Source: Gracilariopsis chorda (Eukaryota > Rhodophyta > Florideophyceae > Gracilariales > Gracilariaceae). From it: DNA of 64,000 bases. The DNA lies in NCBI GenBank assembly GCA_003194525.1, contig NBIV01000116.1, positions 1 to 64,000 on the forward strand, read 5' to 3'. Of this stretch, positions 1 to 55,622 are shown one piece after another (position 1 is the stretch's first letter; each line of letters begins with the position of its first letter). A program made the translations under genes and the position numbers. The notes beneath the pieces are model-generated. The model ran no database searches. It worked only from the letters and a program-made list of their open reading frames with translations, and was not told where the DNA came from.

Positions 1-1147
1 CGCGGTATTGTAGAATACCATCCTGGTTCCAGGTGTGTCCGACAAGTCGGTCTACTACGAACTCTCGTTCGTAGACCTGCCGGCCGTGCCGGGTGGTGGT
101 TGTACTCCCTTGCGAGGGCTGCCCGCTGTGCGGTATAATGTCCTTAGCAGGGTGTTCGGCGATAACTCCGACGTTGCCGTGCGCTGTCCTAGTGGCCGCT
201 GCTCATGCGGAAAAATATCCCTGAAGAGGGTGTGTGGTGTCACGGTTTTCCCCGGCAAGTCATTCCCCATTGGCGTGTCGTTGTTCCCGTCTTCACGGTA
301 GCCGGGCGAACCGCCAGTCGGCGGGGGACTTGGGCTCCCGCCTTCGCGGTTGAGCTCACGAACCGCGAGTTTGCGGGAAGATGACCGCTCCTGCGGGGTC
401 GGCATTTCCACAATCCCCTGGGGGTACCGTGCGACACGGTGATTGGGTGGCAAACCGCCTCCCTGCCAGGCGCACGAGCGCTCTGCACCATACGTTCCGG
501 CGATGCCGTGGTGTCCCTGGCTATTGACGGGTTGCCTGGGCTAACTCCGGTACAGCGGTATTTTGGTCAAAAGTCCCCTTTGGGGGGTTCTGGGCAGGTG
601 CCGATGACACCCTTTTCAGGGAAATTGCCGCTGAGCGCAGTGCACCATCTCCGTGATGAGGAGCAGCGTCCGGTACGACCGGTTTCGAGCGTGCGATGGC
701 GCGCGTTATTCCCGAGTTTCTCGGTTCTTCGCCGCAGCGATGCGGGGTTTGGCGCAAATTATTTCCCCGTAGCGGGGGCTTTGATTCCGTCAACGACGGG
801 AGGCGTTTCCGGTGCTTGCAAGCCAGGGCTTAAAGCTTCGACTGCAGCTTGGCCGCCTTTTTCCCCAAGAGGGGTGTGGGTATTTCCCAGCGGCGCTGGT
901 GTATATGGGCGCCTCTTCTCCGCGGGGCGCGGGTCTGATCGACCTGATTGAACCGCTTCCGCGGGGACTTCCGCCAACGGCGGCTTCGAGGCATCGGGCG
1001 ATTGCCTTTCCGCTGCTGCGGTCTTGGAGTGAGGCTTCTCGTTTTCCCGTGACAAACGGTGTATTTTGCCGCTTTTGCGGGGCCTGCGCGTCTGGTTCCT
1101 GTTGCACAGCACTGCCCGGGAACGGGGGATTAGTGTCGCGTGACATA
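1..1147 (-). other. 3' noncoding region of element A, hairpin-dense
   Basis: This stretch lies between the pol stop and the unseen 3' LTR. It does not resemble the LTR at 7708-8515, and its open frames on both strands look incidental. It is packed with short inverted repeats, for example CCGTGCGACACGG at 427-439 and CCGTCAACGACGG at 787-799. More than 1.1 kb between integrase and LTR is long for Ty3/gypsy elements. An env-like or accessory gene was looked for and not recognised. Confidence 0.6.
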
Positions 1148-4100
1148 CTAACGTGCTCCACGGTCAGTATTCCGTATGTTACGGTGTGTTTCCCGTTGCG
1201 ACGGTGATATCGTTCCTCGAAAACGAGTGTTCTCCTCCCCCTCCTTAGACGGAGTGGCGGGATAAGGGATAACATTCCCCACCTGGCGGGTATAAATGCG
1301 CGCCAGTGGGGCAGATGTGGTAGGGACGGGCGCTGAGGGGCCCGAATTACCCGGCTGAGCCGGTGAGTCTGACAGAGTCGGTAGGTCTGAGAGTCCCCGG
1401 CTGGGGTGTGGTAGTACCGTAGGTCTAGTACTCCCGGATTGTTCCGGTGTAGCGGAGTCCGTAGAAACGGGGCTGCCTGGACCCAGGACTACCTCTGACG
1501 AGGGAGGAGGGGCAAGGACAACACGATCACGGGAAATCCGTTGGTGCGTGTCCCCCATCTCTACCACGACAGTGTCGGTGTTAACAGAGATCACCTTGAA
1601 GGGTCCATCCGCCACAGGCGAGAGTTTGTGACGCTTCTCCCGTTCCGGGTTGTAGTATTCCTTCCTGATGAAGACGTAGTTATTTGCCCGAATCGGGGAC
1701 GGTTTTCCTCGCAAGCGAGCGTCAAAATCCCGCTTTTAAGCGGCTTGGGCCCGTGCCATAGACTTCCGCGCCGCGGGGACCAGCTTGGAAAGCCATTGCT
1801 TCCATTGCTGCCGGTAGATACCCACAGATGGGAAATTGTCCAAGGTAGCTTGGGGTTCCAGCGCCACAGGCGGGGGTGTTCTAGATAGAACCAACTCGAA
1901 TGGCGAAACTCCGGTAGTTCGGTGTACCTGCGTATTGTACGCGTAGGTTACCGCATCAGCGTAGAGATCCCAATTCGTTGGGTGGTCAGCGACGTAGGAA
2001 CGTAACGCCGCGAGTAACGTCCGGTTAAACCCTTCAACTTGCCCATTACACTGGGGGTGGTAGGTAGTCGTGAACAAGTTCTTGACATCCAGGATGCGAC
2101 AAACATCCTGGAAGAACTTGCTTACGAACTACTTCCCGTTGTCAGAGAGCACCTCTACAGGGGGACCGTAGACAAAAATCCAGTGCGTCACCAGAGCCTG
2201 GGCCACCGTGAGAGTGGTTATCCTCCGAAGAGGGACAGTCTGTACCAGCTTAGAAAAGCGGTCGGTAATGACAAGTAGAAACTTGTTTCCACGTTTCGTG
2301 GTGAGTAATGGTCCGAGAATATCGATCGCAATAAACTCGAGCGGCGCCCTTGCGGGGAATAGTTTCATCTTCTTCGCATTTTTGCGGAGTTTGACGCGAT
2401 TCTTCGCGCATTCGCTACAAAACCGCACAGTTGCGTAGCAATCCACCGCCATTGCGGGCCAATAGAAATCCCTTCGCAGGGTTAGGTAGAGTTTCCTCCC
2501 ACCTGGGTGACCTCCAATGGGGGCGTAGTGTGATAGATGTAACACCCGCGATTGCAGGGAATGTGGTACCACAATCTGTGGGCGGGCTTCGACCTTTCTT
2601 ACGAGGTAGCCTTTGTCGTTTACCCCGAAAGGGAGATCTTCACCACCGTTGATACGGGCACGAATTCTCGTACAGAATGGGTCGCCAAATTGTTCTCGGA
2701 TCATTTCTTCCGGTGATACCAGTACAAAGTTTCCCGGTAACGGGTTCTCAGATTTATCTCGCGATGCGAGTAGTTCGTCAAAATCAGCATCCTCGTCCCA
2801 GGTTTCTGGCCTAGCCTCGACGGCATGTTCCGGATCATCCGGGTCTATAGCCATGAAGCATGGGACTTCATCATCCTCCGTTGGGAGTGCTTCCCCACTT
2901 GTGGGTAACCGCGATAAAGCGTCGGCCTGGGTGTTCTGCGCACTTTTTTTATAAATGACTTGAAAGTCATATTCCGCGAGGCGGAGTCTCCAGCGCATGA
3001 GGCGTCCCGACGGGTCGGAGATAATCATCAACCACCTCAATGAGGAATGATCCGTGTACACGGTCAAGTGAATTCCCATAAGGTAGGGGCGCAGAGTGGT
3101 CATCGCCCATACGACGGCGAGGCACTCTTTCTCCGATACGGAGTAGTTCCGCTCATGAACATTGAGCGAACGTGACCAATAACCAATTGGATGCCGTTCC
3201 CCCTCGGGGGTGGTTTGAAAAAGAGCACACCCGACTTGGTAGTCGCTCGAGTCCGTATCTACGGAGTATGGCAACCCAAGTTTTGGGAGATGTAGGATTG
3301 GTGCTGATGTGACAGCCTCCTTTAAGGAGTTGAAGGCTTCCGATTGCTCGGGCGTAAATATTCCCAGTTTTGGGGGGTTCCCCTTTCGCAACAACGCGTT
3401 CAGGGGCGCTGCAGTATCCGAAAAGTTCGGGATAAACCGTCTATAGACGTTGACCAGTCCCAGAAAGGAGCGCAGTTCCGTTTGAGTACGGGGTTCTTTC
3501 GCCTCAACGAGGGATTTGAATCGAGCTTTCTCGATTGCTAACCGTCCAGGACGGATAATGTGACCCAGATACTTCACAGTATCTGTGAAAAACTCGCATT
3601 TCCTCAACTTGAGGGTAATTCGCGCATCGCGGAGTACGGTGAGCACGTCTCGGACGTGAGTGAGATGGTCGTCCAACGAGTTGGAGAAGATGATGATATC
3701 ATCAAGGTAGACCAGACAACTCCGCCACTTAAAGCGGTTGAGTAGAATATCTACTGCACGCTGAAAGGTGGCTGGGGCGTTGGTTAACCCAAATGGCATC
3801 CGCTTGAAGCGGTACGTTCCTGCATGGCAGGTGAATGCGGTTTTGTCGCGATCCTCCTGTCTGACAGGTACTTGCCAATATCCCCAATTGGCATCAAGGG
3901 CCGTGAACACGGTGGCGTCTCCAAGGGAGTCAATGCACTCGTCCATACGAGGGATGGGGTACGTGTCCCTAACAGTCACGGCATTGAGCCGGCGGTAGTC
4001 GACACAGAACCTCCAGGTTCCGTCGGCCTTTGAAGCCAGTACAACTGGGGATGCCCAGGGTGATTGAGCGGGCTCAATCACACCTGCGCGGAGCATCTTG

Positions 4101-5425
4101 TCCACCTGGGACTGCTCCTCTTCCCGAGCTTTCGGACCTGCCCTGTAAGGGGGTTGTGCAACCGGTCGCGCACTGGGGATTAAATCGATCCGGTGTCCCG
4201 TTGCATTAATCTCGCCAAGCGAGCCATCTCACATTGTGGTGAATTCCCGTAACATAGTACGGAGTTTGTCGCGGTGCGACTCTGGCACGTGGCTGAAGTC
4301 CAGCGCTTCAAGTGCTTTTTCCGGATCAATCCGGTCATTGCTCGATGGAGCATTGTCCTGTGGAACAGGTGTGGTTCGCAATTCCGAGTTACTCGGTATG
4401 TTCGGCGCTGAAGTAGCGGTTTCCTCCCCCTCTTTAGACTTGACGTCTTCGGACGGCGGGGCGAACTCCTCAGAAGAGGTGGTAACTCCGAGTACATCGG
4501 CGGCTGTCATCTTTGTTGGCAGCATTCCCATAGGATGGGGGGTTACACTCCCAATTACTTGGTGTTTGACCAGATACTGGGGGTGTTTGCCAAGGTTGGC
4601 AACCAATATCCGGAAAGGGACATCCGGGGAAATGGAGACAATTCCATTAGCCAGCGCCAGCTGGGATTTCTCGTACAACGAGGCGAGGGGTTGTATAACC
4701 CGAAGACCGTGTTGACGGGAATTTACCTGCACCCAGACTTGGGACTCAGCCGGTATAGAAACCGAGGCAGCGACGCGGAGCTTGGTGGACTCGCGGGACG
4801 CGGGCGGTGGTTCCTGCGCAGCAGGGAGGGGAACTTGTTTCCGAGAGGACCGCTTTAGCGGGCGGCGAACAATCGGAACCGACGATCCGTCGTCAAGTTC
4901 TACACGCCTGAGGCGGGGCCTTATTGCGTCGACAAATCTGTCGCAGTAATCACATCCCAGTATGACTGGTGCTGCCAATGAACGGCAAACGATGAAGTCC
5001 AACTTCACCACGGAGGTACCAAGTCTCACGACGAGGTCCACTGTGCCCACCGTTTGTAACGGGTTGTTATTCGCATCCGAAATGTCGGGGACCGCGTCAG
5101 AGCGGATACGAGACCGCACAAGCGGGGGTAACAATGATTCCACAACGAAGTTGGGACCTGCACCTGTATCCAGGACGGTGAGAAACCTCACCATAAACTG
5201 GGGGTCAAGGCCAAGTTCGGCATAGACCTTATAATTGCGCTTGGCCAAGACCAAGACTCTACCGGGAATCCGGGGATTTTTACTCCGTATCCACGGGCGA
5301 CGCAACACACCGAGGTGCGCAGAGTCCGCGTCAGCAGTGTGTTTCCTCGAGAGGACTTTCACCGGGGAGCGAGGCGAGGACGCCTCGGGCGCCAACAGCC
5401 TCGTTCTTGAGGACGCCTCTCCCAA
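1148..5425 (-). pseudogene. pol: Pol polyprotein of element A (PR-RT-RNase H-IN), three in-frame stops
   Basis: One reading frame of about 1426 codons is broken only by TGA at 4229-4231, TAG at 2129-2131 and TAA at 1736-1738. In order it carries an aspartic protease with LDTGAG near 5170, RT with YLDD near 3709-3698, RNase H (TDSSD, then YTDHSS), the H..H..C..C integrase zinc finger, and the integrase core with its first Asp in AIDILG and second Asp in LSDNG. The catalytic Glu lies in NGQVEGFN after the TAG. A GPF/Y-like module (DGPFKV) follows; no chromodomain is visible. The frame is -1 relative to gag and remains open upstream of the first ATG at 5425, so pol was probably made by -1 frameshifting from gag. 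The product would act in virus-like particles and then in nuclear integration. As it stands it cannot make full-length Pol without readthrough. Confidence 0.93.
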
Positions 5426-5442
5426 AGGGGAGACTCCCTCAG

Positions 5443-7602
5443 TTAGTTTTCCGCCTTCGGCGGTGGGTTGGTTTCCTCGACAACGAGTGCTTCATCCCGT
5501 TGACGGGGGTTTCTATCCGCATAAGCGGGGGTTGCAACGGATGGTTGCGTGATCTCCCGAATCCGGGTGTATGAAGCTTGCCGCGCACGCGGGGTCTGTG
5601 GTAGGGCGTGGGAAAAGTCCGTTTTAGCACGGAGGTAGGAAGCCATCGGGACGGAACGTTTCTCCTCTGGAGTGAGGGCCTCATAATTTGCCACCACCTT
5701 GGCCATATCCTTTAGTGAACAAATACACTGAGGAGAGGTATGGCCATGGGCATAGCACAGGTGGCAAATGAGAGCCAGCACCGCGAAACGCGGATTACTA
5801 TTCCGAGTATCGGAGCGGGTGTCAGCCCATCCAGGCCGTTGATAACGGGATTGACCGTTTGAAAACGGGAGTCGTTGGGGTTGAACCCGACTGTTACCAC
5901 CGTATAGAACGGGATCTTCTGTTCCCGTATCATGGGTCATCTCCGTCGTTGACGGTAACTCACTGGTGGGTATCGACACACCATCCCCCTGCGCTAAATG
6001 CACGGTATCAAATCCCTGTCCAGGGTTCCCATCCGCGGTGAGCGGGAGAGAGGAAGCTTCGCTTTCCAGCAACAACGCCTTGGCGGATTTAGACCGATTG
6101 TTCGGAGTTCTTGCACGAAGTGCATCCCCTTCCGCTCGAGCGTGTTGGACCAGCTCGAGGTAGGTGATCCTTCGCTTGTCCTCCCGATAACGGGTAACTA
6201 AACTCCGGATTGCCGGGTCAAGACCATCAATGAACATGGTACTGCGCTCCCCAGCGGGGTATACGTTACCACATCTGTGGAAAGCCTTGTTAAGGCGCAC
6301 CGAGTAATCGGTCTCGGTCTCTCCAGCACGCTGGCGTGTATCTCGCAAAGCGAGGATAGCCTGCTGAATAGCGGTGTTGGTGGCGTAGGAGCGCAGAAGA
6401 TACTGCACAGCCTCCGGCCAGCAAGTAACTCCTCCCTCGGAGGCGCGAGAAGATCCTCTGACAGAGGTGTATTGGTCCTCCGCCACTCCCCGTAAGAAAT
6501 ACGGTAAAGCCAAATAGGCTTGTCCCTCATTCATACCGAGGATATCGGCCTCCGCTACAAATCGGGATAGGAAATCCAGTACTAGGACTGGGTCCTCTCC
6601 AGTAAAATACTGGTTGCGGAGCGAGAGCTGCATTCGCTTAATGCATTCTCGCACCTTTCCCGTACCACGGGGCGTACGTCCAAGTGACGAATCTTCAAGC
6701 CGGTAGTACCGGTATGATAAAAGCTTCCGGTAATCCGGGTTTGTCGGTTTCAATTCCTGGAGACCGGGGTGTTTTCTCCCCTTCTGGCGGGTTCGGACCA
6801 CACCTTCAGTGGCCGATGACCGCTTCGAGCGGGAGGAGTAGCCTCGCTTCTCGTCCTCCGAGTCGGAGTCCGAGGAGCTCGAGCTAACCGAATGGTTTCG
6901 GGGTGAGCCCGAAGATGTCGAAGAATCGGAGTCCGAATATTTTCGGTGATGTTTCCGTCGGTGACGGCGTTTCTTCTTCCCAGCAAGCTGGTCGTTGTGC
7001 GATGCCTCGTTTACCGGATCACCCGGGGATGGTTTGTCCATGAGGACGAACTGCTCCAGCGTCTCCAGGCGGGCACCAATCCGATCAAATCGGGCTTCAA
7101 CTCCTTCGATGAAGGCGGCGGGTTGTCCCAAACTCTCCAACACGGAGTTGACGTCAGACAGTAAAATACGGAGCTCCTCGGCGACCTCCTTTACGGGGGT
7201 TGCCGAGACCACCTCTTGGAGGGATTTTAGTTCCCCTACAAGGGTGTCATGGGCGGTCCACAGAGCGCGGACCTGGGATTCCAGGGAAGTCCCCTGGGGG
7301 GTGTTATCGCCCGTTCCACGGGGGCTTGAAGCCGCGACAGCGGGAGCAGGCCGGGGTGCCTGTGGCACTGCGGCAACAGCCGGAGCCGATGCTGCATTAC
7401 CCTGCGGGGGTGATAACGAGGGCAAAAGGAGGTTCCGGGGTTCCCGGTCGGGGGTATCGTTCCGCGATGAAGCGGCGCAAGCACGGCTGGAACTTGTCCG
7501 TATAGGGATACGGGGTACGAACCGAACTTCGGAAGTGTCCGCGTTTTCGCGGGAGCGACTACGCGTAACCACTGGCTCCGCGTCGGAGGGATATCTCGAC
7601 AT
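5443..7602 (-). CDS. gag: Gag structural protein of element A
   Basis: This is an intact 719-residue frame. Residues about 106-185 look like a coiled coil. Residues about 209-262 form a basic stretch (KKKRRHRRKHHRK) followed by a Ser/Asp/Arg-rich tract. A capsid-like region follows at about 320-500, and a perfect CX2CX4HX4C zinc knuckle lies near residues 617-630, as expected of nucleocapsid. The protein should coat genomic RNA and assemble the particle. Residues 28-36 (FVPRIPIRT) match a motif in the two secreted host proteins at 13534 and 18816. The stop lies just upstream of the protease in the -1 frame. The coding sequence carries the same dense short inverted repeats as the LTR, so its codon choice is constrained by something other than protein. 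Confidence 0.9.
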   Translation of the reverse strand: MSRYPSDAEPVVTRSRSRENADTSEVRFVPRIPIRTSSSRACAASSRNDTPDREPRNLLLPSLSPPQGNAASAPAVAAVPQAPRPAPAVAASSPRGTGDNTPQGTSLESQVRALWTAHDTLVGELKSLQEVVSATPVKEVAEELRILLSDVNSVLESLGQPAAFIEGVEARFDRIGARLETLEQFVLMDKPSPGDPVNEASHNDQLAGKKKRRHRRKHHRKYSDSDSSTSSGSPRNHSVSSSSSDSDSEDEKRGYSSRSKRSSATEGVVRTRQKGRKHPGLQELKPTNPDYRKLLSYRYYRLEDSSLGRTPRGTGKVRECIKRMQLSLRNQYFTGEDPVLVLDFLSRFVAEADILGMNEGQAYLALPYFLRGVAEDQYTSVRGSSRASEGGVTCWPEAVQYLLRSYATNTAIQQAILALRDTRQRAGETETDYSVRLNKAFHRCGNVYPAGERSTMFIDGLDPAIRSLVTRYREDKRRITYLELVQHARAEGDALRARTPNNRSKSAKALLLESEASSLPLTADGNPGQGFDTVHLAQGDGVSIPTSELPSTTEMTHDTGTEDPVLYGGNSRVQPQRLPFSNGQSRYQRPGWADTRSDTRNSNPRFAVLALICHLCYAHGHTSPQCICSLKDMAKVVANYEALTPEEKRSVPMASYLRAKTDFSHALPQTPRARQASYTRIREITQPSVATPAYADRNPRQRDEALVVEETNPPPKAEN

Positions 7603-7684
7603 GAGAAAATACCGTTACGACGGGAAACGATCACGGAACTTCCGGTAAATAAAAACAAACCTCGTAAGAGGGAAAACAAAAACC

Positions 7685-7704
7685 GATTCTAGGTCGGGAG
7701 ACTA
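7685..7704 (-). promoter_or_regulatory. Primer-binding site of element A
   Basis: Read on the minus strand, 3 nt after the LTR, this is TAGTCTCCCGACCTAGAATC. Family C (29943-29962) and family E (59546-59564) carry the same block at the same place; the E copy begins TGGTCTCCCGACCT. The complement fits a tRNA 3' end exactly: T-loop end GATT, T-stem CTAGG, acceptor TCGGGAG, discriminator A, then CCA. The implied C1-G72 pair with A73 is typical of eukaryotic tRNA-Tyr, so that is the inferred primer. Confidence 0.72.
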
Positions 7705-7707
7705 CTT

Positions 7708-8515
7708 TGTGGTGCAATGCCCCAAAGGGGAAAAACACCGAAAGACGTCCGGGATCTTCCTCTCACGAGGTGAACCCAGTTGGGTAGAGCCCTCCCAGAG
7801 GTGTCACGGCGAAGCCGGTTTGTAAGACCAGGGACACCTGTCGCGACTCGCGCAGGGAGGTGAAGGCGAAGAATCGGTATCCGCGTGAGCGGGGTGTGAT
7901 CCTCAGTAGAGGTATGTTTCCACGTAAGTGGGGGTGTGTGAGCGGATGCGCACACGAGGGCCGCGGATAGCGGGAGGTGCTACCCTAAAAAGGGGAAAGA
8001 GGAAGGACGAAGTGGGTCGCAAGAGCGACGAGTAGATACGGCAATGCCGGTGGACAGGACTCTCTATACAGGGCGAAACACCAATATGATTGGAGCAATT
8101 AGTACTCCCAATGATGGGTCTCCTTTAGATGTGCAAGGGGGGTGAACTTCCGTACACTACGGTGCTTCCCTCCAAGGAGGGGTTGAGAACACGTGGAGGC
8201 GGTAAAGCTCAGAGCCAATTCCCCAGGTTGGGGTCCCTTGTTGGGGAAGGTTTACTGGTGCGACGGCAGTGCGCCGTCGCACTAAGTACTAGCTTCCCAG
8301 AAATGGGTGTGAAAATAATAAATAAAATTAACTAAAATACTCCACATTCCGTGGCAACATCCACTACTGTGGCCAACCGCCAATTGACCCAAAACCGTGT
8401 CCCACGTGTCCATACCCACCATTGTGGGGCGTAGTTCATATACACACTACACAACCGATAATATCGGGAAAGCGTTCAAGTACCCAGAATCCCTCCCTGA
8501 GGGCGTTGCACTTCA
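7708..8515 (-). repeat. 5' LTR of element A (808 bp)
   Basis: The LTR begins TGAAGTGCAA on the minus strand and ends TTGCACCACA, giving TG...CA ends with imperfect terminal inverted repeats. It aligns end to end with the 825-bp solo LTR at 54798-55622. It contains at least 24 short inverted repeats of CC...GG type, including CCAATATGATTGG (8081-8093), CCGTACACTACGG (8150-8162), CCTCCAAGGAGG (8169-8180), an 8-bp-arm hairpin at 8260-8280 and CCGATAATATCGG (8455-8467). A possible TATA-like TGTATATGAA is read on the minus strand near 8434-8443. Confidence 0.9.
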
Positions 8516-8868
8516 GAATGATCCGTGTACACGGTGAAGTGAATTCCCATAAGGTAGGGGCGCAGAGTGGTCATCGCCCATACGACGGCGAGGCACTCTT
8601 TCTCCGATACGGAGTAGTTCCACTCATGAACATTGAGCGAACGTGACCAATAACCAATTGGATGTCGTTCCCCCTCGAGGGTGGTTTGAAAAAGAGCACA
8701 CCCGACTTGGTAGTCGCTCGAGTCCGTATCTACGGAGTATGGCAACCCAAGTTTTGGGAGATGTAGGATGGGTGCTGATGTGATAGCCTCCTTTAAGGAG
8801 TTAAAAGCTTCCGATTGCTCGGGCGTAAATGTTCCCAGTTTTGGGAGGTTCCCCTTTCGCAACAACCG
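8516..8868 (-). pseudogene. RT/RNase H fragment of a second family A copy
   Basis: This block is nearly identical to 3046-3398 of element A and encodes the end of RT and the start of RNase H (TDSSDYQVGCALFQ). Element A inserted into this older copy, whose other half must lie left of the window. The right end stops abruptly at 8868, where the PIF1-like helicase sequence begins. CCCCCTCGGGGG in element A has become CCCCCTCGAGGG here, one of few differences. Confidence 0.88.
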
Positions 8869-10682
8869 AGCTACGAAGTCTGGTTGTCACACTATACCAA
8901 CAAGGCGCAGACCCAGAAAAAATGGTCGTCGAAAACTGGGAGGCACTATGTAGCGACATAAATACAGGAGATGAGCAGCAAAGAAAGCAAGAAATGTACC
9001 GACGTGTGGTGGAGATCTCAGACCGGCACGGTGGGCGACTGCTTCGCGATCACAGCTTCTTCTCCCAACACCTACAGCAGAACCATGCAGCATTGACTGA
9101 GGCGAATCGAGCTACAACAACTCGAGACGCGCGAGTGGTGCGAAATTCGTCAACTTTGCAGTCAAGGTACGCCACCTTAAAACCTCGCCAATGACAAGTC
9201 ATTGACACCGTCATTGCCGCATTACAACAACTACCGGCGCTGCAGGAGCAAACAAGCACTCCTGGAAACGTGTTCTTTGTGCAAGGATCCACAGGAACGG
9301 GAAAGACATACGTGCTCAACTTCCTTCGTGATATCGTTGAGTCGGAAGGAATGCTTGCTGAAATGACTGCTACAACAGGCATTGCAGCTTCGTTGTACGA
9401 AGGTGGCCGCACTTTACATAGCCTGCTCGGACTCGGTGTAGCTGATAGGGACAGCACAAGCAGCACTACAGCCACTTTGTCAAAGTACGGTCCCCGATCT
9501 CAACGTGCAGAACTGCTACGCGAAATACAACTGCTCGTCTTGGATGAGACGTCCATGCTCTCACAAAAGCTTTTCGAAGTCAGGGATGCGTTGCTCAAAG
9601 ATCTTCGCTGCAGTGGAATGGAAAATCCGCCTCCGTTTGGGGGCTTGACCATCGTTCTATCCGGCGACTACTCCCAGCTGCTTCCAGTGGTGCCGCAGGT
9701 GTACATGGAGGCCGAGCCAAGTGGAAATGTGAGACCAGTGTACACAAACATTCTCAACGAATTGCCGTGGAAGAGTGATCTGTGGACATTGTGCTCGGTT
9801 CAAGTGCTGTAATTCACGGAACAAGTACGCCAAGCCGATGATCCAGCATTTGCGTCGCTGTTACGTTCCATCGCACGAAACACAATATCCAACAACGCTC
9901 CACTACAACTCAGATCTACCAGTGGCATGCAAAACGCCTACCAATTCCTGTGGAAGTGGCTCACAACACGACGCAAGGAGGATGTGGATCTCAGCAAAAT
10001 GCTCATTGCGTCCACAAATCAGTTGGTCGATGAACACAATGCGGCAGCGCTGGATCTGTTTCCTGGTGAACGCTTTACTCTTCTGTCAGCTACGACGGTA
10101 CAACCTGACGGTGTACCAAACTCAGAGCCCGACGTCACCAATACCTTTGTTCCCGAGTTTGGGTATCAGTATGCACCTACTGGTGTACCTCCTCATAACT
10201 TGGATTTGAAGATTGGTGTGCCAGTTATGGTCATTCGGAACGTGCTGTATCCGGCTGTGGTCAACTGAAAGCTGTTCGTAGTCGTGCGTGTCGATCACTT
10301 TACGATGCAGGTGGCTCGATTCGACGAGAACGGACAGATACTGGAACGACAGCTCCTGCATCGTATCAACTTCTAGTTTTCTTTCGCAGACATTCGCATG
10401 ATTCCAAAGCAGTTCCCCATTCGTCTCTAGTTTGCAGCTACCGTTCACAAAAGACAGAGAAAGACGTTGGATGGCTTGGTTGTGGATGTATGATCCAACT
10501 TTTTCTGCGTCGGTCAGCTGTATGTCGCATTGTCGCGCGTTCGAAGGAACAACCATTTGCTGCTTCTGCATGACCCGCAGCTTACATCCGCGAATGCGCA
10601 CACAATTCATCCCATGCCTGTAGCCATCGCCAACCCAGTGATGCCTGAAGCCAGTCAGTTCTGCATCCCTCCACAACCATAA
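8869..10682 (+). pseudogene. PIF1-type helicase of a Helitron, multiple stops
   Basis: One frame runs through this interval with in-frame stops at 9192, 9810, 10266, 10374, 10428 and 10491, ending in TAA at 10680-10682. It has Walker A (GSTGTGKT, about 9285-9308), Walker B (LLVLDETSML, about 9530-9559), the SGDYSQLLPVV motif III and the late PIF1 block with QLYVALSRVRR. These are helicase domain motifs of the Helitron RepHel protein. The closest relative in the window is the helicase of the Helitron at 38735-40760, with which it shares the sequence before Walker A as well. The Rep half is missing: the homology begins at the junction with the gypsy fragment. The conserved KSQGQT motif is degraded (HKRQRKT), so it is dead. 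Confidence 0.88.
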
Positions 10683-40869: not shown

Positions 40870-42394
40870 GAAGTGGGTATCATTTTAGATGAAGGGGAGG
40901 ATTTCCATCATGTTATTGTCGCTGATGATCTACCAAACAGAGTGTTCGATGTAGTAGAGGAAGGGTATGGCCTTCTTACTAAAGAGGAATTCTTGCAAAA
41001 GCAGGAAATTGATTGGTACCGAACGTCATTGATACAATTTGGTGGACAGTAAGATATGCATTTCCAGGAGGAAAAGGAAGGTTATATAGTGAAACAATCC
41101 ACTTTTGGACGGCCTGTTCCAAAAGGTCGTACCAGAATCACTTCTCCAAAATGTTCTCCACCTGGCCCACTGCTCATGGTTGGCAGGTAACCCAGGAGGT
41201 ACAAGAATGTAATACAACCTGATGAGAGACTTCTCTTCGCCCCTGTTGGCTCACGATGATTATATCTATATAGCCACATGCAACTCGTGTGTCAAAACCA
41301 GTGGTGGTATTGGGACATATCGTACGTTTATGAAGCTTTTCCTGCTGGCTAGCTAATCGGAGGTCGTAGCTCTTGACTTATTGGGACCACGTCCTGAATC
41401 CAACAAAGTGAACAAGTACATCATGGTAGTTACTGATCGGTTCACAAAGCTTACTCGAGCTATCCTGCTCTAGCGCACAACATCTACAGTTTTAGCTGAA
41501 GCCTTTCTCCACCACTGGGTATTTCCGTACGGTCCTCCACTATACCTCCTCACCAATTATGGTTCCAACCTAGGTTCCAAGTTCTTTGAATCAGTCTGCA
41601 AAATGCTAGGTTTCAAGCACTATTTCACGAATGCGTACCATCCCCAAACCAATGAGCAAGTGAAAAGATTTAAGTGAACCCTTGTAGAACGTATGCGTCG
41701 CTACGTAGCGGAAAAAGAACTGGATTGGGTGGGCTTCGTCCAACTCTTGACGTACGTTTGTAACCTCCAGGTACACCGCTCAACAGGAACCAATCTTTTT
41801 GACACATTCTTTCGCAACACTGATCTGGTATTGTCGTCCCAGCTGGTCCAGCAAGCTGCCGTGCCACTGGGACATAATATGCCACTCAAGTGAAGATATA
41901 TATCTTATGGAATGTTGAGTGAAGTCCTGGCTGTAGCATCATCATAGATGCCTGCAGCCCAACAGCAGTACCAGAAGTGCTTTCACCAGAAGGTACCGGA
42001 AGTTACCAAAATGGAGGTTGGAGACTATTTCTTCGTGAAAATCTCATCAAATGGAGCTCTCCTAACCCTGAAAGATAAGACGAAGGGCCAACTGGTAGTG
42101 TAGGGGATAAAATACAATCTCTTTCCGAAGTAAACGGGACTTTATGAAGTTAGAAGAACGTGTGACCACACGGTAAAAATTCTACAGAGCGGTCAAGGAA
42201 ACACCTTTTGGTTGCTATGGTTATAAGAGCCCTTCTAGCTAAACCATCCTCCGAGGTTCTTGATGGAGCACAAAGCACTTCCGCTCGTGCGCAATCGGTC
42301 TATTTGGAACACCGCGCTACCAAGACCTATACTACCAGTCCGGCACCAGCTCCTACGACTGAACCAGTCGGACAGAAGGTAGTCACAGCCGACC
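40870..42394 (+). pseudogene. Integrase half of family C pol, catalytically dead
   Basis: Family A pol has counterparts for each block: the zinc-finger linker, LDLLGP (first Asp kept), VVTDRFTKLTR, YHPQTN and YVCNLQVHRSTGTN. The second Asp position reads LTNYGS where family A has LSDNGK, and the Glu block reads NEQVKRFK where family A has NGQVEGFN. Both catalytic residues are thus replaced. In-frame stops are frequent. Element D interrupts its tail at 42395. Confidence 0.82.
42391..42394. repeat. Target site duplication of element D, left
   Basis: GACC here is repeated at 48000-48003 directly outside the other LTR, giving a 4-bp target duplication. Confidence 0.8.
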
Positions 42395-42750
42395 TGTGAC
42401 GTTGCGGGGCTGAAAGGGAATCAGGTCGAACGACCAAGGGGCAGGCAAACACAGAGTTGGTGCTGCACCGGCCGCGGGGACTTGAGGTCAGTTCTGTTGT
42501 TCCCTCTCTGGCCTGACCGGGCTCACCTTTATTAGACCTACTCACTACCGCCGCCGGCCGCCCGGCGGTACCATGTCCTCCAATCACTGGACGCCATTGG
42601 TCCAAGTTGGCCGAACGGCTTACAGATGGGCGGGCTTCCACTACCGGAGAAACCTACCGCGCCATCCCGCTCTCGTCGTCCCGTGTCTGCCAAGCTCCCT
42701 CGACAGACCACAGCGACGGACGCAGGCGAGTAGAACTACTCAGCGTCACA
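42395..42750 (-). repeat. 3' LTR of element D (356 bp)
   Basis: It runs from TGTGACG to CGTCACA, perfect 7-bp terminal inverted repeats. AATAAA lies on the minus strand at 42528-42533, a likely poly(A) signal. It matches 47644-47999 base for base as far as I can check by eye. Confidence 0.95.
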
Positions 42751-42788
42751 GGGCCCCATGCCTTGGCCGCCCCGCGCGCGTTAAGGCA

Positions 42789-43613
42789 TCATTCAGATCC
42801 CAGCGAGCACTCACGAAGAGCACGACGCTTGAGACCCCGCTGTCCAGCGGTGTGGAGGTAGTCTTCCAGCAATCCTGGCAAGTCCTCAAACACTTGACCC
42901 AACGGTTCCCAAGTAAAGTCTATCTCATCGGGCAGACCTGCCCACTCCACGAGCACTTCCAGCTGACGATCTTTCTCACGAATGCCACGAAGCTGTTCAG
43001 CTGTCTCGTACTTCGTCTCCGAAGCTCGAGCAGCCTCCAGCAGCTTTGGGGTGAACACCCTACCATCCATATCTGCACGATAGGAGTGGAGGCGTCTAGC
43101 GTGCACAACTTCACGCTTGTCTTTGACCAGGTCCTGTACCTCATACACCCAGTCAGATCTTACTGCTGTAACTCTGCGAGGACCCCTCCAGGTGAACTGC
43201 AACTTGTGCCCACCCTTTGTCACCGTTCGGACGAGCACGAAGTCCCCGACGCTAAAGTCGGCCTCCTTGATGTTCGTCCGGCGGTTGTGCTTCTGTACCT
43301 TCCGCGCACGCGAAGCCGACGTCAGTCCTTCCACGTCGCGATGAACATCGCACAGGGCACCTTGCAACTTTCCGATGTCCACAAGTTGCCTGGCCCGCAC
43401 TTCGTCCTCCGTCCGAGCACTGCTGTATGCCGGGACCGGCAGCGCACGAAGAAGCGGGCGAACGGGAGATGGCCCGTGAAGACCTCCAGGGGTGTTCGAT
43501 AGACTTCGGAGTTCTCCGGGTCGCGTAACCCGAGCCGCTTGAGCGGAGCGTGATTGAGCACACTCTGCACGCACTCCGTTACCGCCGGCCAGTCCTGGGG
43601 CGCCAACTTCCAT
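42789..43613 (-). CDS. Integrase C-terminal and chromodomain-like segment of element D, -1 frame
   Basis: The functional part begins near 43450 and overlaps the end of the main frame. It encodes a GPF/Y-like module (DFVLVRTVTKGG...WRGPRRV) and then a chromodomain-like block (LEVLVEWAGLPDEIDFTWEP...LPGLLEDYL). Related elements carry these fused to integrase, so this segment should be translated in the -1 frame or has been separated by a one-base deletion. The chromodomain may guide integration to modified chromatin. The upstream part of this frame (43460-43613) is probably the shadow of integrase. Confidence 0.75.
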   Translation of the reverse strand: MEVGAPGLAGGNGVRAECAQSRSAQAARVTRPGELRSLSNTPGGLHGPSPVRPLLRALPVPAYSSARTEDEVRARQLVDIGKLQGALCDVHRDVEGLTSASRARKVQKHNRRTNIKEADFSVGDFVLVRTVTKGGHKLQFTWRGPRRVTAVRSDWVYEVQDLVKDKREVVHARRLHSYRADMDGRVFTPKLLEAARASETKYETAEQLRGIREKDRQLEVLVEWAGLPDEIDFTWEPLGQVFEDLPGLLEDYLHTAGQRGLKRRALRECSLGSE

Positions 43614-46600
43614 TCACTCAACAAGGCTTTGCACGCACGAAGCACTTCGCTGCACACCCTTTCAACGGTACCGTTGGCCCAGGGCGAGTAGGCCGTGGTA
43701 AAGTGATGGTGCACACGCACTTCGGCCGTCAACTCGGCAATCAGCTGGTTCTTGAAATGAGAACCCTGATCGCTGACGAGCCAAGTCATACTTCCAAACG
43801 TCCCGAACCATGTACCCAGGGCGTCGGCTGCAGCCTCGCTTGTACAAGCTGTTGTAGGCCAGAGCCACACAAACGACGAAAGGTCGTCTCGAATGAGCAG
43901 CAAGTACTTCTTGTCATCCCGTCCGGGCCCCATGAACAGATAGTCCATGTGCACAACTTCATTCGGCCTCGACCCATGGAGAGCCGATCCGAGCGGACGG
44001 GGAATCAAATCGCCACTACGGGTGACGATGCAATGGAGGCAGCCTCGAACGAGGGTCTCGACGTCAGCACCCATCGTCGGCCACCACCATTCCTCAGCCA
44101 GCACACTCCTCGTAGCGTCGCGCCCGCGATGACCTAAGGTCCCGCAATGGGAGACCACGAGGATCTTGAGCTGTAGCTCCTTGTCCTCCTGCGGCACCCA
44201 AACGCGACCGCGCTTCTTCCAGACTCCTTCTTGCTCATCGAGCTTCAGGCCGTCCGGCCGAGTTGCGGCTTCTTGCGATTTCTTGATCGAGTCCATGTCT
44301 GGCCAGACGAAATCATCCGGAGATGGGATGAGCTGCTCCGAGTCTTGCAACAGCATACTGCTGACGGCGGAGCGTTCGCTCCTATCTCTGCGATACCCGC
44401 GCGTCCACCGCGTGAGCATGTCTGCGCAGACGTTGTCCTTCCCATCGATATGCTCGATCACGTAAGCAAAGCGGGACAAGAACAGTGCCCACCGTTGCAC
44501 TTTCGATACCACGTGGCGACCAAGAGCTGGTTCCAGCGCCAACGGCGCAAAGACAAACAGCAAATTGCGATGGTCCGTGAACACGTGCGTACGCACATGA
44601 CTCTGGAACAAATAATCCATCTTCTCTAACGTCTGGAAAATGGCAAATCCCTCCTTCTCGAAGGTTGTCCAACCTATCTCAGCTCCCTTGAACGAGGAAC
44701 CCAGAAATCCGAGGGGCTCGTGCCGTTGCTCCTCGAAGGGCAGTCGGAGCTGCACAGCATCCGTTTGCGTGACCACGCCAGACCAGTACATTTCAGAAGC
44801 ATCTGTAAAGACGCAAAGCACTTTCTCCGGGTCCGGATGTGAGAGAGTAACAGCATTGCGGAGGCTTTCTTGCATATCTGCAAACGCTTGGTCGTGTGTA
44901 GGGCCCCAAGAAAGGCTTCGCAGAGAGATACGGCGAATAGATCTATTCGTTCGGCGACCCGATTGAGCGTACGCTCGTTCCAAAACTTCCACGAGGGGGG
45001 CTATGCGAGCGGCAAAGTTAGGGATAGCATTAGCCATCCACCGGCAACAATAAATAAACTGCGCCAATTCTTCCGCGGTTTGCGGTGCGTCCATGTCTTT
45101 GAGACCGTCGAGACGCGCCGGGTCCATTCGATATCCATCCTTTGATACGATGCGACCGCACCACTTGAGCTCACGCTCGAACAGCTTGCACTTCCGAGCG
45201 TGAAGGAAGAGGTTCCGCTCCCTGCAGATTGCCAAAAACTCCTGGAGCTTGCTCAGCAACGTTGACTCGTCTTTCGCATGAATACTGAAGTCGTCCAACC
45301 ACGCCTTGACCGAATCACGCAACGAAGCGAACAGTGGCTCCACTGAACTCTGAAAGTACGACGTCGCATTGGCCAGTCCTGGCAACACCCTCTTCGACAC
45401 CACGACTCCACGCGGTGTGACGATGCCACATGCCGAGTACGAATCGGGGTGCAAAGGCAACTGCCAATAGCCCGATACGAAGTCCAAACTTGCGAAACAT
45501 GTGCTTCCAGCAAAGTCGGAGACCTCCGAGTCCAGGTGAGGCATAGGCCACGCCTCCTTGATTGTTGCGGCGTTCACCGGCCGCAAGTCAACAGCCATGC
45601 GGTACCGCGCTTTCGACCCATGCTTGGGGACCAGCAGCGGTGCCGCTTGCCACGCAGCTGAGGGCATGTCTTCCACGAAGCCCATCTCTCGCAGCGCGTC
45701 CACGTACTTGTCCAAGAACAGGCGCTGGTCCGGCGAGTAGCGTCGTGCCTTCACTCTAACCGACCGCTTGCCTGGTTCCAGGCGTACCCTCATCGGCTCG
45801 ACGTCAGCTGGTGGGGATTTTCCCAGCCGGAGCCGAAAAACCGAACGGTACTCCTTCATCATCGTGGAGAGCCTCCCCACTCCTGTGGGGCTCAGGCCAT
45901 TTGATTGCGCTCGTTCGAGCATCTTGTCGAGCGCTGCGTCGAGAGCCTCAGGGGGATCATCGCCGAGATCGACGTACACGTCGCTATCTTCCAGGCGGTC
46001 GCCTCCTCCTTCTCCGCCCTCTCGATGAAAAGCACTGCCCCAATCGAACCCTCGTTCGCGGAGCATGCTCCCTATTGAGGTGGCACCACCCGCACTGGGG
46101 TCGTCGTTCTGTCCCCTGGCCTGCAACAGGCCAGGTACATCGACGCTACCACCCAGGCGGTCACGGGCAGCTGCCAGCATGACACGGTTGTCCAACCCCA
46201 AAGCAGCCAACAAATGTCGGCCGATGTAAGCATGAGCCAGCTCATCATCACTGACTAGCCAACGCACCCGACGCAGCAGGAGCTTCTCTCCATGCCTTAT
46301 CCTCAACTCGATATCCGATTGTGTCGATCGACTACAGCGAATCGGGGGGACGGACGTCGCCGCGTTGCCAAACAGCATGACTTCCTTGAGCTTCTCAACC
46401 CTTACATTCGGATCCGCCTTCATGATAGCCTTGAGCAAGGCAGATGAGATCACGTTCGTGTCCGAGCCTTGATCGGCGAGCAAGGTGCTCTCCACAGCGC
46501 CGTTGCAAAACGAAGCGCTGAACAGCGATGAATTGTCGTCCCGGTCATCGGCGCCCGAGATCGCACCGATCTTCTTACCCGACGAACTCCCACCTTCACT

Positions 46601-47599
46601 CTTGCGGCGCTTGTCGAAGTACTCTGCGAGATACTTCGTCTTCTCTTCATCCGAGGCCAGGTTGCAGTTACGGATGTAGTGCCGCTTACCACAGCGCGGC
46701 AGCAGACACAACGGCAGTTCTGCCGGGCGCTTCCGGCTGCCCTGCTGGGACCCACCGGTAGCCGCTTTCTCACCGTCACTCTGTCCTGATCTCGATTTGT
46801 CCTCTTTTTCGCGCCCGGGCGTGCGATTCCGCCCCCGGCGCTTCTTGCGGTGGGTGCTGGCACTGCCAGACCCCCCACCGTACACATCATCTCGATCGGA
46901 GTCGGACTGCTCAGCCCTGTAGCCCTTGGCCGACTCGTGTCGATCGATGACCTTGGCTTCCTCCGCGAGTTCTCGCATGAACTTGCCGAAGTCCTTCTCC
47001 AACTCGTCCTTGCGCAGTCGGAGCGTTAGCATCATGCGGGTCCGCAGATCGGCATGAGTGATGCGTTTCATGATATGCCGAACGGCCAACTTCGGTTGCC
47101 GCTTGACAAAATCGTCGTAGCCACAGTGACGGAGCTTCTCATTGTACTGTAAGCAAAGGCGCCACACCTGCCGCTGGAGGTTAGCGGTCTTGTCGGCGTT
47201 CGCCAGCTTCACATCTTGCAGCTCTCTCTCGATACGGGCCAGATCGTAGTCGGCGGGATCCACGCGTGCGCGCTCTTCGACGCACTGCCGCAGGTCCTCC
47301 TCGGTGATATCCTCCACTGTGTCGGCCGACACCCAGTTGGCTAACACCAGCAGCTCCAAGATTGACTTGTCGATCGAGTTGCGGTAGCTTGTGAGCGGAA
47401 TCTGAACAGATTGCTCTTCGTTCTTCTCGGCGACACGACGCTCATAGATCTCCCTCGCTTCCTTGAACTGGACGAAGTTCGCGGTCGCGATGTCTTCTAG
47501 CCGAGGTGCCTCGACTGTCTCAACGATGGTCTGCTTGACGGTAGCGTTGTCATCGCGCGTTCGCGCACCAGACCCTGCTTGTCTTGTCGCAGTTGGCAT
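43322..47599 (-). CDS. Gag-Pol polyprotein of element D (1425 aa)
   Basis: The ATG at 47599 lies 45 bp after the 5' LTR. Residues 1-290 are Gag-like with an RKKRRGRNR basic patch. A zinc knuckle variant CX4CX3HX4C follows at about 298-312. The protease active site reads LLADQGSD (about 373-380) where most have D-S/T-G. RT has PMPHLDSE, FASLDFVSGYWQ and WLDD. RNase H shows FTDASEMYWSG and FTDHRNL. The integrase zinc finger (HCGTLGH...CLHC) and DDE core (HMDYLF, SDQGSHF, NGTVERV) are all present. The frame has no internal stop. It ends at 43322 shortly after entering an incorrect frame past FTGHLPFARFF; the chromodomain-like tail is in the -1 frame. The element is probably active or very recently so. 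Confidence 0.93.
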   Translation of the reverse strand: MPTATRQAGSGARTRDDNATVKQTIVETVEAPRLEDIATANFVQFKEAREIYERRVAEKNEEQSVQIPLTSYRNSIDKSILELLVLANWVSADTVEDITEEDLRQCVEERARVDPADYDLARIERELQDVKLANADKTANLQRQVWRLCLQYNEKLRHCGYDDFVKRQPKLAVRHIMKRITHADLRTRMMLTLRLRKDELEKDFGKFMRELAEEAKVIDRHESAKGYRAEQSDSDRDDVYGGGSGSASTHRKKRRGRNRTPGREKEDKSRSGQSDGEKAATGGSQQGSRKRPAELPLCLLPRCGKRHYIRNCNLASDEEKTKYLAEYFDKRRKSEGGSSSGKKIGAISGADDRDDNSSLFSASFCNGAVESTLLADQGSDTNVISSALLKAIMKADPNVRVEKLKEVMLFGNAATSVPPIRCSRSTQSDIELRIRHGEKLLLRRVRWLVSDDELAHAYIGRHLLAALGLDNRVMLAAARDRLGGSVDVPGLLQARGQNDDPSAGGATSIGSMLRERGFDWGSAFHREGGEGGGDRLEDSDVYVDLGDDPPEALDAALDKMLERAQSNGLSPTGVGRLSTMMKEYRSVFRLRLGKSPPADVEPMRVRLEPGKRSVRVKARRYSPDQRLFLDKYVDALREMGFVEDMPSAAWQAAPLLVPKHGSKARYRMAVDLRPVNAATIKEAWPMPHLDSEVSDFAGSTCFASLDFVSGYWQLPLHPDSYSACGIVTPRGVVVSKRVLPGLANATSYFQSSVEPLFASLRDSVKAWLDDFSIHAKDESTLLSKLQEFLAICRERNLFLHARKCKLFERELKWCGRIVSKDGYRMDPARLDGLKDMDAPQTAEELAQFIYCCRWMANAIPNFAARIAPLVEVLERAYAQSGRRTNRSIRRISLRSLSWGPTHDQAFADMQESLRNAVTLSHPDPEKVLCVFTDASEMYWSGVVTQTDAVQLRLPFEEQRHEPLGFLGSSFKGAEIGWTTFEKEGFAIFQTLEKMDYLFQSHVRTHVFTDHRNLLFVFAPLALEPALGRHVVSKVQRWALFLSRFAYVIEHIDGKDNVCADMLTRWTRGYRRDRSERSAVSSMLLQDSEQLIPSPDDFVWPDMDSIKKSQEAATRPDGLKLDEQEGVWKKRGRVWVPQEDKELQLKILVVSHCGTLGHRGRDATRSVLAEEWWWPTMGADVETLVRGCLHCIVTRSGDLIPRPLGSALHGSRPNEVVHMDYLFMGPGRDDKKYLLLIRDDLSSFVWLWPTTACTSEAAADALGTWFGTFGSMTWLVSDQGSHFKNQLIAELTAEVRVHHHFTTAYSPWANGTVERVCSEVLRACKALLSEWKLAPQDWPAVTECVQSVLNHAPLKRLGLRDPENSEVYRTPLEVFTGHLPFARFFVRCRSRHTAVLGRRTKCGPGNLWTSESCKVPCAMFIATWKD

Positions 47600-47643
47600 G
47601 ATTTCCAGTCAACTCCAATACCCTCGCGCGATGGAGTATATAC

Positions 47644-47999
47644 TGTGACGTTGCGGGGCTGAAAGGGAATCAGGTCGAACGACCAAGGGGCAGGCAAACA
47701 CAGAGTTGGTGCTGCACCGGCCGCGGGGACTTGAGGTCAGTTCTGTTGTTCCCTCTCTGGCCTGACCGGGCTCACCTTTATTAGACCTACTCACTACCGC
47801 CGCCGGCCGCCCGGCGGTACCATGTCCTCCAATCACTGGACGCCATTGGTCCAAGTTGGCCGAACGGCTTACAGATGGGCGGGCTTCCACTACCGGAGAA
47901 ACCTACCGCGCCATCCCGCTCTCGTCGTCCCGTGTCTGCCAAGCTCCCTCGACAGACCACAGCGACGGACGCAGGCGAGTAGAACTACTCAGCGTCACA
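47644..47999 (-). repeat. 5' LTR of element D (356 bp)
   Basis: It is identical by eye to 42395-42750, including the AATAAA on the minus strand at 47777-47782. The sequence downstream (minus strand) begins GTATATACTCCATCGCGCG and shows no TGG-type tRNA complement; it contains the palindrome TCGCGCGA. The priming mechanism is thus unclear. Confidence 0.95.
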
Positions 48000-54792: not shown

Positions 54793-54797
54793 TATGG
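54793..54797. repeat. Target site duplication of the solo LTR, left
   Basis: TATGG, repeated at 55623-55627. Confidence 0.88.
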
Positions 54798-55622
54798 TGA
54801 AGTGCAAAGCCTCAAGGAAGGGATTCTTGGTACTTGAATGCTTTCCTGATATTATCGGTTGTGTAGTGTGTATATGAACTACGCCCCACAATGGTGGATA
54901 TGGACACGTGGAACACTGTTTTGGATCAATTGGCGGTTGGCCACAGTAGTGGATGTTGCCACGAAATGTGGAGTATTTTAGTTGATTTTATTTATGATTT
55001 TCACACCCATTTCTGGGAAGCTAGTACTTAGTGTGACGGCGCACTGCCGTCGCACCAGTAAACCTTACCCAACAAGGGACCCCAACCTGGGGAATTGGCT
55101 CTAGTTGTTACCGCTTGCGCGCGTGCTCTACTCCTCCTTGGACGGAAACGCCGTGAACCACGGGAAATCTAACCCCCTTGCACATCTAACGGGACCCATC
55201 ACTGGGAGTCATATAATTCCAATTGCATTGGTGTTTCGCCCTGTATAGGGATATTGTTACCGGCATCGCCGTTCGCCCCCGTCGCTCTCGCGACTCACTT
55301 CGTCCTCTCTTCCTCCTCTTCGTCCTTCCTTTTCCTCTTTTTAGGGTACCACCTCCCGCTATCCGCGGCCCTCGTGTGCGCATCCCCTCACACACCCCCA
55401 CTTACGTGGAAACCTACCTCTGGGGAGGACGCATTCCCGCTCTCGCGGATAACGATTCTTGTCCTAAACCCTTCTGCGCTAGTCGCGAAGGGTGGCCTCG
55501 GTCTTACAAACCGGCTCCGCCGTGCCACCCCTGGAGGGGCTCTACCCAACTGGGTTTACCTCCACGGAGGAAAGATCCCGAACGTCTTTCGGTGTTTCTC
55601 CCCTTTGGGGCGTTGCACCGCA
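54798..55622 (+). repeat. Solo LTR of family A (825 bp)
   Basis: In this orientation it begins TGAAGTGCAA and ends GTTGCACCGCA, aligning end to end with the reverse complement of 7708-8515. Perfect 5-bp target repeats flank it and no internal element sequence is present, so it arose by LTR-LTR recombination. Family E RT text continues across it without loss once the LTR and one TATGG are disregarded. Stems of the short inverted repeats are kept while loops differ from the 5' LTR of element A (see findings). Confidence 0.95.

Follow-up and report, generated by a model that had tools for sequence, protein, structure and literature searches.

The stretch of DNA analysed here (the window) comprises 64,000 nucleotides of the red alga Gracilariopsis chorda, positions 1 to 64,000 of contig NBIV01000116.1 (assembly GCA_003194525.1). 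Its first 8515 bases hold a Ty3/gypsy long terminal repeat (LTR) retrotransposon on the minus strand, here called element A and recognized by Pfam matches to reverse transcriptase (RT), RNase H (RH) and integrase (IN). These domains follow the same order in a second element of the window, element D, although the rve match of A is partial and below the curated cut-off (Table 1). Element A is incomplete: the contig start coincides with the window start and cuts off its 3' side, so that a single LTR is present and the second would fall beyond the contig start. In a genome search with this LTR, 40 of 2029 candidates were scored, comprising the window copy and 39 more at 97-99%, and the inner LTR edge was set by the six of these 40 matches that are without the inner 56-58 bases. 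The best protein match of A comes from the red alga Agarophyton chilense (72%). The gag-like open reading frame (ORF) has no significant Pfam match; its translation contains CHLCYAHGHTSPQC, spotted by eye, which we take to be a C-x2-C-x4-H-x4-C knuckle. The adjoining 420-amino-acid ORF likewise has no Pfam match and owes its protease (PR)/linker label to its position alone, and the 195-amino-acid frame is, again from its position, probably the C-terminal part of the integrase. Across this element and several other Ty3/gypsy lineages of the same genome, the sequence is overwritten by dense perfect mini-hairpins of near-fixed size (4-5 base pairs, small loop), which cover LTR, non-coding and coding DNA alike and follow a sequence preference that is specific to the lineage.

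Table 1. Coordinates of the retroelement features in the window, with hairpin counts given as observed versus expected or versus the mean of synonymous shuffles
Feature	Positions	Strand	Basis and remarks
3' region of A, cut by contig start	1..1147	-	25 strict CC hairpins vs 1.4 expected
195-amino-acid open frame of A	1148..1735	-	no Pfam match
Reverse transcriptase, RNase H and integrase start of A (RT-IN)	2129..4228	-	Pfam RVT_1, RT_RNaseH, Integrase_H2C2, rve; 37 CC hairpins (spans 11-14), synonymous-shuffle mean 5.0
420-amino-acid ORF of A, protease/linker position	4229..5491	-	24 CC hairpins (spans 11-14), synonymous-shuffle mean 3.4
gag-like ORF of A, 723 amino acids	5443..7614	-	49 CC hairpins (spans 11-14), synonymous-shuffle mean 5.5
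5' LTR of A, 808 bp, TG...CA ends	7708..8515	-	17 strict CC hairpins vs 0.9 expected; GG 0
RT fragment of a relative	8516..8866	.	repeat, 97% to 3045-3344 over 300 nt; right end set by eye
Element D, distant Ty3 lineage	42394..47942	-	ORF and Pfam; identical 300-nt stretches at both ends
Solo LTR of sister subfamily B (locus L035)	54798..55622	+	84.7% identical to A LTR; opposite orientation to A

An earlier note on this DNA had described A as studded with hairpins whose arms run CC...GG, the mirror type GG...CC being almost absent. With its definition (perfect inverted repeats, arms of at least 4, loops of 1-6) and 20 dinucleotide shuffles as control, positions 1-8515 contain 418 inverted repeats against 174±15, and the asymmetry is borne out, with 183 CC-first stems against 20.9±4.2 compared with 26 GG-first stems against 18.8±4.2. 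Under a stricter definition (CC plus two further pairs, outer span 12-13, 100 shuffles), A holds 130 CC hairpins where 8.4 are expected and the shuffle maximum is 16, while the nine mirror hairpins correspond to chance. Every tested part of A is affected: besides the LTR and the 3' region, strict hairpins abound in gag (32 observed, 2.5 expected), PR (18 and 1.1), RT-RH (22 and 1.1) and IN (15 and 1.5). The host-like DNA at 10001-42000, said to be free of the pattern, is indeed at chance by the first definition (CC 27 against 26.8, GG 25 against 24.7) and has no strict excess (8 against 10.2). Synonymous shuffles of the three coding parts (200 each, spans 11-14) also fall short of the CC counts in Table 1, reaching at most 14 in gag, 10 in PR-linker and 11 in RT-IN, with GG hairpins at 5, 6 and 4 against means of 3.7, 2.6 and 3.0. 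The hairpins thus constrain codon choice, as had been proposed. Because neither the dinucleotide nor the synonymous shuffles, which the note had named as its refutation test, reproduce the CC number or the ratio of CC to GG, the CC hairpin pattern of A is not chance.

Some particulars of that description need correction. All seven hairpins it quoted are present, five at the base given and two, placed only approximately, 1 and 11 bases away (3052, 3199). The proposed spacing of one hairpin every 20-30 bp is too dense, since the 168 non-overlapping CC hairpins of A (spans 11-14) amount to one per about 51 bp; regular spacing was also considered and rejected (standard deviation/mean 0.70). Hairpins do occur in the LTR, but the count of at least 24 reported for it does not hold: 7708-8515 has 20 CC and no GG stems by the note's definition, and a count of 24 matches bases 1-808, the 3' region of the element, instead. 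A also has a mild surplus of stems that begin otherwise than with CC (for loops of 3-6, 196 compared with about 112), partly as sub-registers of CC hairpins.

The geometry of the hairpins in A is nearly fixed. An outer span of 12-13 nt dominates, the commonest of 193 CC stems being 4 bp with a 4-nt loop (52) and 5 bp with a 3-nt loop (36). The two inner pairs are complementary in 73 of 139 CC-N8-GG and 57 of 149 CC-N9-GG frames, in 29 of 110 and 24 of 101 at spans 11 and 14, and in 4 of 78 and 5 of 78 mirror frames at spans 12 and 13. Stems are bounded in length as well: with a 3-nt loop, 65 have 5 bp (6.9 expected) and only six have 6 bp (1.7 expected), and 6-bp stems number 22 against 9.1 over all types with loops 3-8, or four against 1.9 when C-first with loops 3-6. 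The bases directly flanking the stem tend not to pair (7 of 128 sites paired against 26.6 expected from the margins; 86 coding, 17 LTR and 25 3' sites). Additionally, pairing is nearly all-or-none, perfect inner pairing occurring 121 times where 5.3 are expected. Within the RT of A, hairpin starts are spread evenly over the codon phases (11, 13, 13).

To place A among its relatives, we used hand-picked lineages: 10 of 150 listed RVT_1 rows (8 of them in the clade of A), 2 of 36 D-like rows and 2 of 150 copia rows. The RT genes of A, L071, g2 (L065, L066, L069, L070) and g3 (L067, L068, L072) have 72-79% of amino acids in common and are nearly saturated, with four-fold sites 28-43% identical. 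Each has its own preference at the stem base. C-C prevails in A (172 observed, 14.4 expected) and g2 (108 and 7.3), A adding CG (34 and 12.8) and CT (25 and 6.3); g3 prefers C in second place (TC 39 and 8.1, CC 36 and 7.6, AC 26 and 5.1) besides CT (23 and 5.3), and L071 uses CC (18 and 2.5) and TC (17 and 3.0). Pairing just outside the stem is avoided in g2 (3 of 71 against 19.6) and L071 (3 of 30 against 6.3) too. Hairpin starts favour one codon phase in g2 (L065: 5, 8, 14) and g3 (L068: 2, 8, 9).

Hairpins also recur at the same places in these lineages. Taking hairpins of spans 11-14 that begin with CC (A, g2) or with CC, TC, AC or CT (L071, g3) and 500 circular shifts as control, A and g2 share 9 of 37 positions (mean 0.97, shift maximum 5), A and L071 16 of 37 (mean 1.26), and g2 and g3 10 of 27 (mean 1.06). 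Most positions are unshared between lineages, which indicates that hairpins also turn over. Some hairpins are held at the same codons by compensating changes across the four nearly saturated lineages. At the peptide YRFKR, for instance, the hairpin is kept with different codons in each of them (CGC-TTC-AAG-CGG, CGT-TTC-AAA-CGG, CGA-TTC-AAT-CGG, CGC-TTT-AAG-CGA), g3 using a T-A base pair and g2 having K changed to N.

The LTRs add a comparison on two time scales. Within subfamilies, represented by 31 A-type and 30 B-type copies of 64 distinct LTR rows (the three of other subfamilies excluded), diversity is alike in outer stem, inner stem, loop and rest (0.014, 0.013, 0.019 and 0.015 in A; 0.046, 0.040, 0.037 and 0.042 in B), and this lack of a stem preference led us to reject a mutation process of the host genome. 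Between subfamilies, stems are more identical than both loops and the remainder in all 20 ordered comparisons of five LTRs, and of the 59 pairs changed on both sides, summed over these 20 overlapping comparisons, 46 still pair and 13 do not. Insertion of small palindromic units is rejected, since the hairpins of the five LTRs align with one another instead of showing up as inserted blocks. Gaps of 9, 13 and 14 columns occur in this alignment, that of 13 columns lying beside a hairpin. The solo B LTR of the window is bordered on both sides by the direct repeat CCATA (5 bp) and carries 15 CC hairpins against 0.8 expected (54781-55596).

Element D, which the earlier note held to lack hairpins, proves to be studded too, with a different kind. 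Its RT is 26% identical to that of A, and it occurs at seven places that are identical over 1501 bases, the window copy included. D is rich in even-span palindromes (10, 12 and 14 nt), often centred on G-NN-C: 4-bp stems exceed expectation with loops of 2 (82 against 24.1), 4 (75 against 24.2) and 6 (39 against 25.1) and are at chance with loops of 3 and 5. Three flanking pairs accompany 65 of 455 G-NN-C tips against 96 of 4781 other loops (42394-47643), among them GAAC (11 of 26) and GTTC (11 of 28), and synonymous shuffles of the D ORF give 7.8 G-NN-C hairpins where 56 are observed. No clear excess is seen in the Ty3 pieces L073 and L074, the copia pieces L081 and L082, L077 or a PIF1-like stretch of the window, and a pogo-like DDE ORF (21583-22941) has a mild one (39 against 23.1, z 2.7). 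In an unrooted RT tree, one group (support 0.62) unites D and L080 with L073 and L074; between it and the clade of A stand L077 and a frog sequence, which suggests that A and D gained their hairpin patterns separately.

Outside these lineages, none of 46 pattern matches in viral contigs was confirmed, and among genome contigs two of 12 were, L078 and L077 (42%). L078 (JALZUP010000409.1), a contig of a bacterial metagenome-assembled genome assigned to Robiginitomaculum, encodes a Ty3-like gag and an RT 73% identical to that of A over query residues 1-139, and is probably eukaryotic contamination. It shows odd-loop hairpins without the CC rule (4-bp stems with loop 1, 45 against 17.0; loop 3, 56 against 16.7; loop 5, 44 against 16.3).

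Several further observations concern the surroundings of these elements. The RT fragment at 8516-8866 abuts the end of A and suggests a possible insertion site, that is, that A jumped into another copy. D-like RT stretches recur about every 5 kb on one contig (G000:C308:49379-90560), perhaps as a tandem array of retroelements. The PIF1-like helicase stretch (9195-10268, with an ORF at 9195-9812) may be the remains of a Helitron. A peptide, F-x-PRIPIRT-xxx-R, occurs in the gag ORF as well as in a pair of similar host-type ORFs (7512, 14091 and 19385, minus strand), encoded with different codons in the three; mimicry, capture and chance are all possible.

Which molecule folds was approached through predicted hairpin formation in contexts of about 110 nt, natural and shuffled, with RNA and DNA parameters. 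Natural contexts are not favoured in sense RNA (mean probability in natural and shuffled contexts 0.476 and 0.464 in A, 0.314 and 0.349 in g2, 0.259 and 0.272 in D), antisense RNA of D giving 0.341 and 0.301. On the sense strand, DNA parameters predict more formation than RNA parameters in all three (DNA values in natural and shuffled contexts 0.68 and 0.60 in A, 0.53 and 0.51 in g2, 0.33 and 0.29 in D), with a clear gain of natural over shuffled context in A only. Since CC hairpins (0.49) pair no better in predicted RNA than other 4-bp hairpins (0.48) and natural contexts no better than shuffled ones, RNA thermodynamics is rejected as the selected trait. A scan of 1-8600 with the Rfam 15 covariance models gave no match at the gathering score, and a known RNA family is likewise rejected for A. 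The flanks of A are specific to the sense strand (A/C-CC...GG-A/T, that is, A/C at -1 and A/T at +1; p 1e-12 at ±1, 7e-5 at ±2 and 0.73 at ±3), with the same trend in the LTR and the 3' region, and those of g2 and g3 are strand-symmetric (p 0.46-0.65).

Taken together, the data are best fitted by selection that acts on active elements and favours numerous copies of a single hairpin shape, which is particular to the lineage. The hairpins may be family-specific candidate sites for a nucleic-acid-binding protein of the element itself, most likely the nucleocapsid part of Gag, a tentative reading to which we give a little less than an even chance. Three features make Gag nucleocapsid the best candidate: the rule differs between families, it extends over LTR and genes, and the number of sites seems to count for more than their position. 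Each hairpin would bind this protein, which would act on single-stranded genomic RNA and/or complementary DNA (cDNA). Sibling genomes would then compete for packaging and copying, each added matching site would lift fitness slightly, and the competition would push site number up to the limit tolerated by the encoded proteins. The same competition would make the rule family-specific and turn it into a self-recognition code.

A number of results weigh against this interpretation. In A, to which the one-mismatch analysis was confined (the pooled g2 rows, with the near-identical copies L065 and L069, were left out), inner G-U pairs (8 against 4.5) are not favoured over A-C (10 against 5.4) or other single mismatches (30 against 22), which is unusual for RNA; the small excess of all of them may reflect decay since insertion. 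RNA context is, by the folding predictions, not tuned to let the hairpins form. In D the loop preferences are alike on both strands (p 0.87 for a difference, compared with 9e-6 between loop classes), and pairing of the G with the C at the tip would leave loops of 2 nt, features that suit DNA more than sense RNA. The earlier note had the stems shape the genomic RNA or DNA; for the RNA, this is not supported as phrased, given these same three results. Relatives of D are without its rule, L079 having none and L080 a triloop excess (z 3.8), and outside-stem pairing is only mildly avoided in g3 (13 of 68 against 18.6). Moreover, the overlap of L071 with g2 (6 of 39, mean 1.00) merely equals the largest shift, and the circular-shift control is not corrected for shared amino acids. 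Finally, the 46 compensations between LTRs stand against 210 one-sided breaks (pair-cells, 20 overlapping comparisons), which may reflect decayed copies and the turnover or youth of hairpins.

A mutational origin would dispense with a reader altogether: during reverse transcription the nascent strand would fold back and copy 3-4 nt, so that the RT keeps making and correcting mini-hairpins and the preference is a property of the enzyme. Strict Watson-Crick pairing without G-U in A, small loops, the strand symmetry of D, g2 and g3, and an excess in retroelements with none at 10001-42000 are all compatible with such a process. Self-correcting arms, however, should diverge like loops, whereas A and LTR D, one of the five LTRs compared, are 0.82 identical in stems and 0.59 in loops, with merely 0 to 8 compensated pairs in comparisons involving LTR D. 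One-mismatch sites are not depleted, and copying would cause neither the avoidance of paired flanks nor the small number of 6-bp stems. Lineages close to saturation, moreover, have hairpins at matching codon positions. We therefore consider this origin unlikely. To the same degree unlikely is selection at the DNA level. In this view the dyads would work in integrated DNA or double-stranded cDNA, either by forming small cruciforms or by offering a symmetric site to integrase or to a chromatin factor that protects or expresses the element. The strand-symmetric loops of D and flanks of g2 and g3, the lack of a G-U preference in A, and the DNA predictions, including the advantage of natural context in A, agree with it; the flanks of A, though, are strand-specific, it is not obvious why a reader of double strands should need arms that are arbitrary yet match, and cruciforms as short as 4-5 bp would probably be unstable.

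A defence by structured RNA, in which micro-stems hamper small-RNA targeting or sense-antisense pairing, would suit hairpins that run through the whole element, coding DNA included. Such a defence needs stability and not a fixed size, a fixed base-pair type or family-specific rules, and RNA context is predicted not to be optimized, which makes it improbable; similarly, the silencing evasion or chromatin targeting suggested earlier would not by itself predict that rules differ from family to family. An artefact of base composition or codon usage, which has nothing beyond the higher GC of the elements to recommend it, is virtually excluded by the dinucleotide shuffles, the synonymous shuffles, the mirror type and the different pattern of the GC-rich neighbour D.

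Among known systems, the dispersed packaging signals of single-stranded RNA viruses are degenerate sites that tolerate wobble pairs and are proposed contacts of the coat protein; papers in this field include PMC6281560 and PMC8384211. A shares with them many small stem-loops with a common motif genome-wide, superimposed on the codons of coding sequence. It differs in having 168 non-overlapping sites in a truncated element, compared with some tens, strict and nearly all-or-none pairing in place of degenerate, wobble-tolerant sites, a preference placed at the stem base and not in a loop motif, and an LTR that carries sites along its whole length. The palindromic repeats of algal organelles and GC clusters are spreading copies of similar units. 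They resemble the pattern in A as many small palindromes per genome (for the organelle repeats, see PMC4524435), but the stems of A are arbitrary sequences, many of them in reading frames and some with compensating changes from codon to codon. Quasipalindrome templated mutation turns imperfect inverted repeats perfect; under it, stems should diverge as much as loops do and should be longer, whereas stem identity is higher in 20 of 20 LTR comparisons and 6-bp stems are few. Yeast Ty3 has the LTR and the RT, RNase H and integrase order in common with A, but its hairpins, in the passages of PMC11381356 used here, lie at dimerization and frameshift sites and are not an element-wide repeated motif. 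In the literature surveyed by titles and abstract starts, which included few subscription papers, no retroelement with such a hairpin pattern was found among the matches listed, in line with the note's remark that it knew of no described counterpart.

These findings bear on how LTR retrotransposons pick out their own RNA, which is poorly defined. Ty3 RNA localization and packaging need both untranslated regions and POL, and its packaging sequences are not precisely defined (PMC11381356). With more than 100 candidate recognition sites in one element, another spelling in a distant lineage and none in some lineages, the question becomes testable. It is possible, if less probable than the nucleocapsid reading itself, that a further code can run through whole retroelements: an alphabet of mini-hairpins, particular to each lineage, by which their own proteins distinguish self from non-self nucleic acid, with at least two separate gains in Ty3 elements of one alga and a fast turnover as in an arms race. 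Element A is also an extreme example of one sequence bearing two messages, a protein code and a hairpin code.

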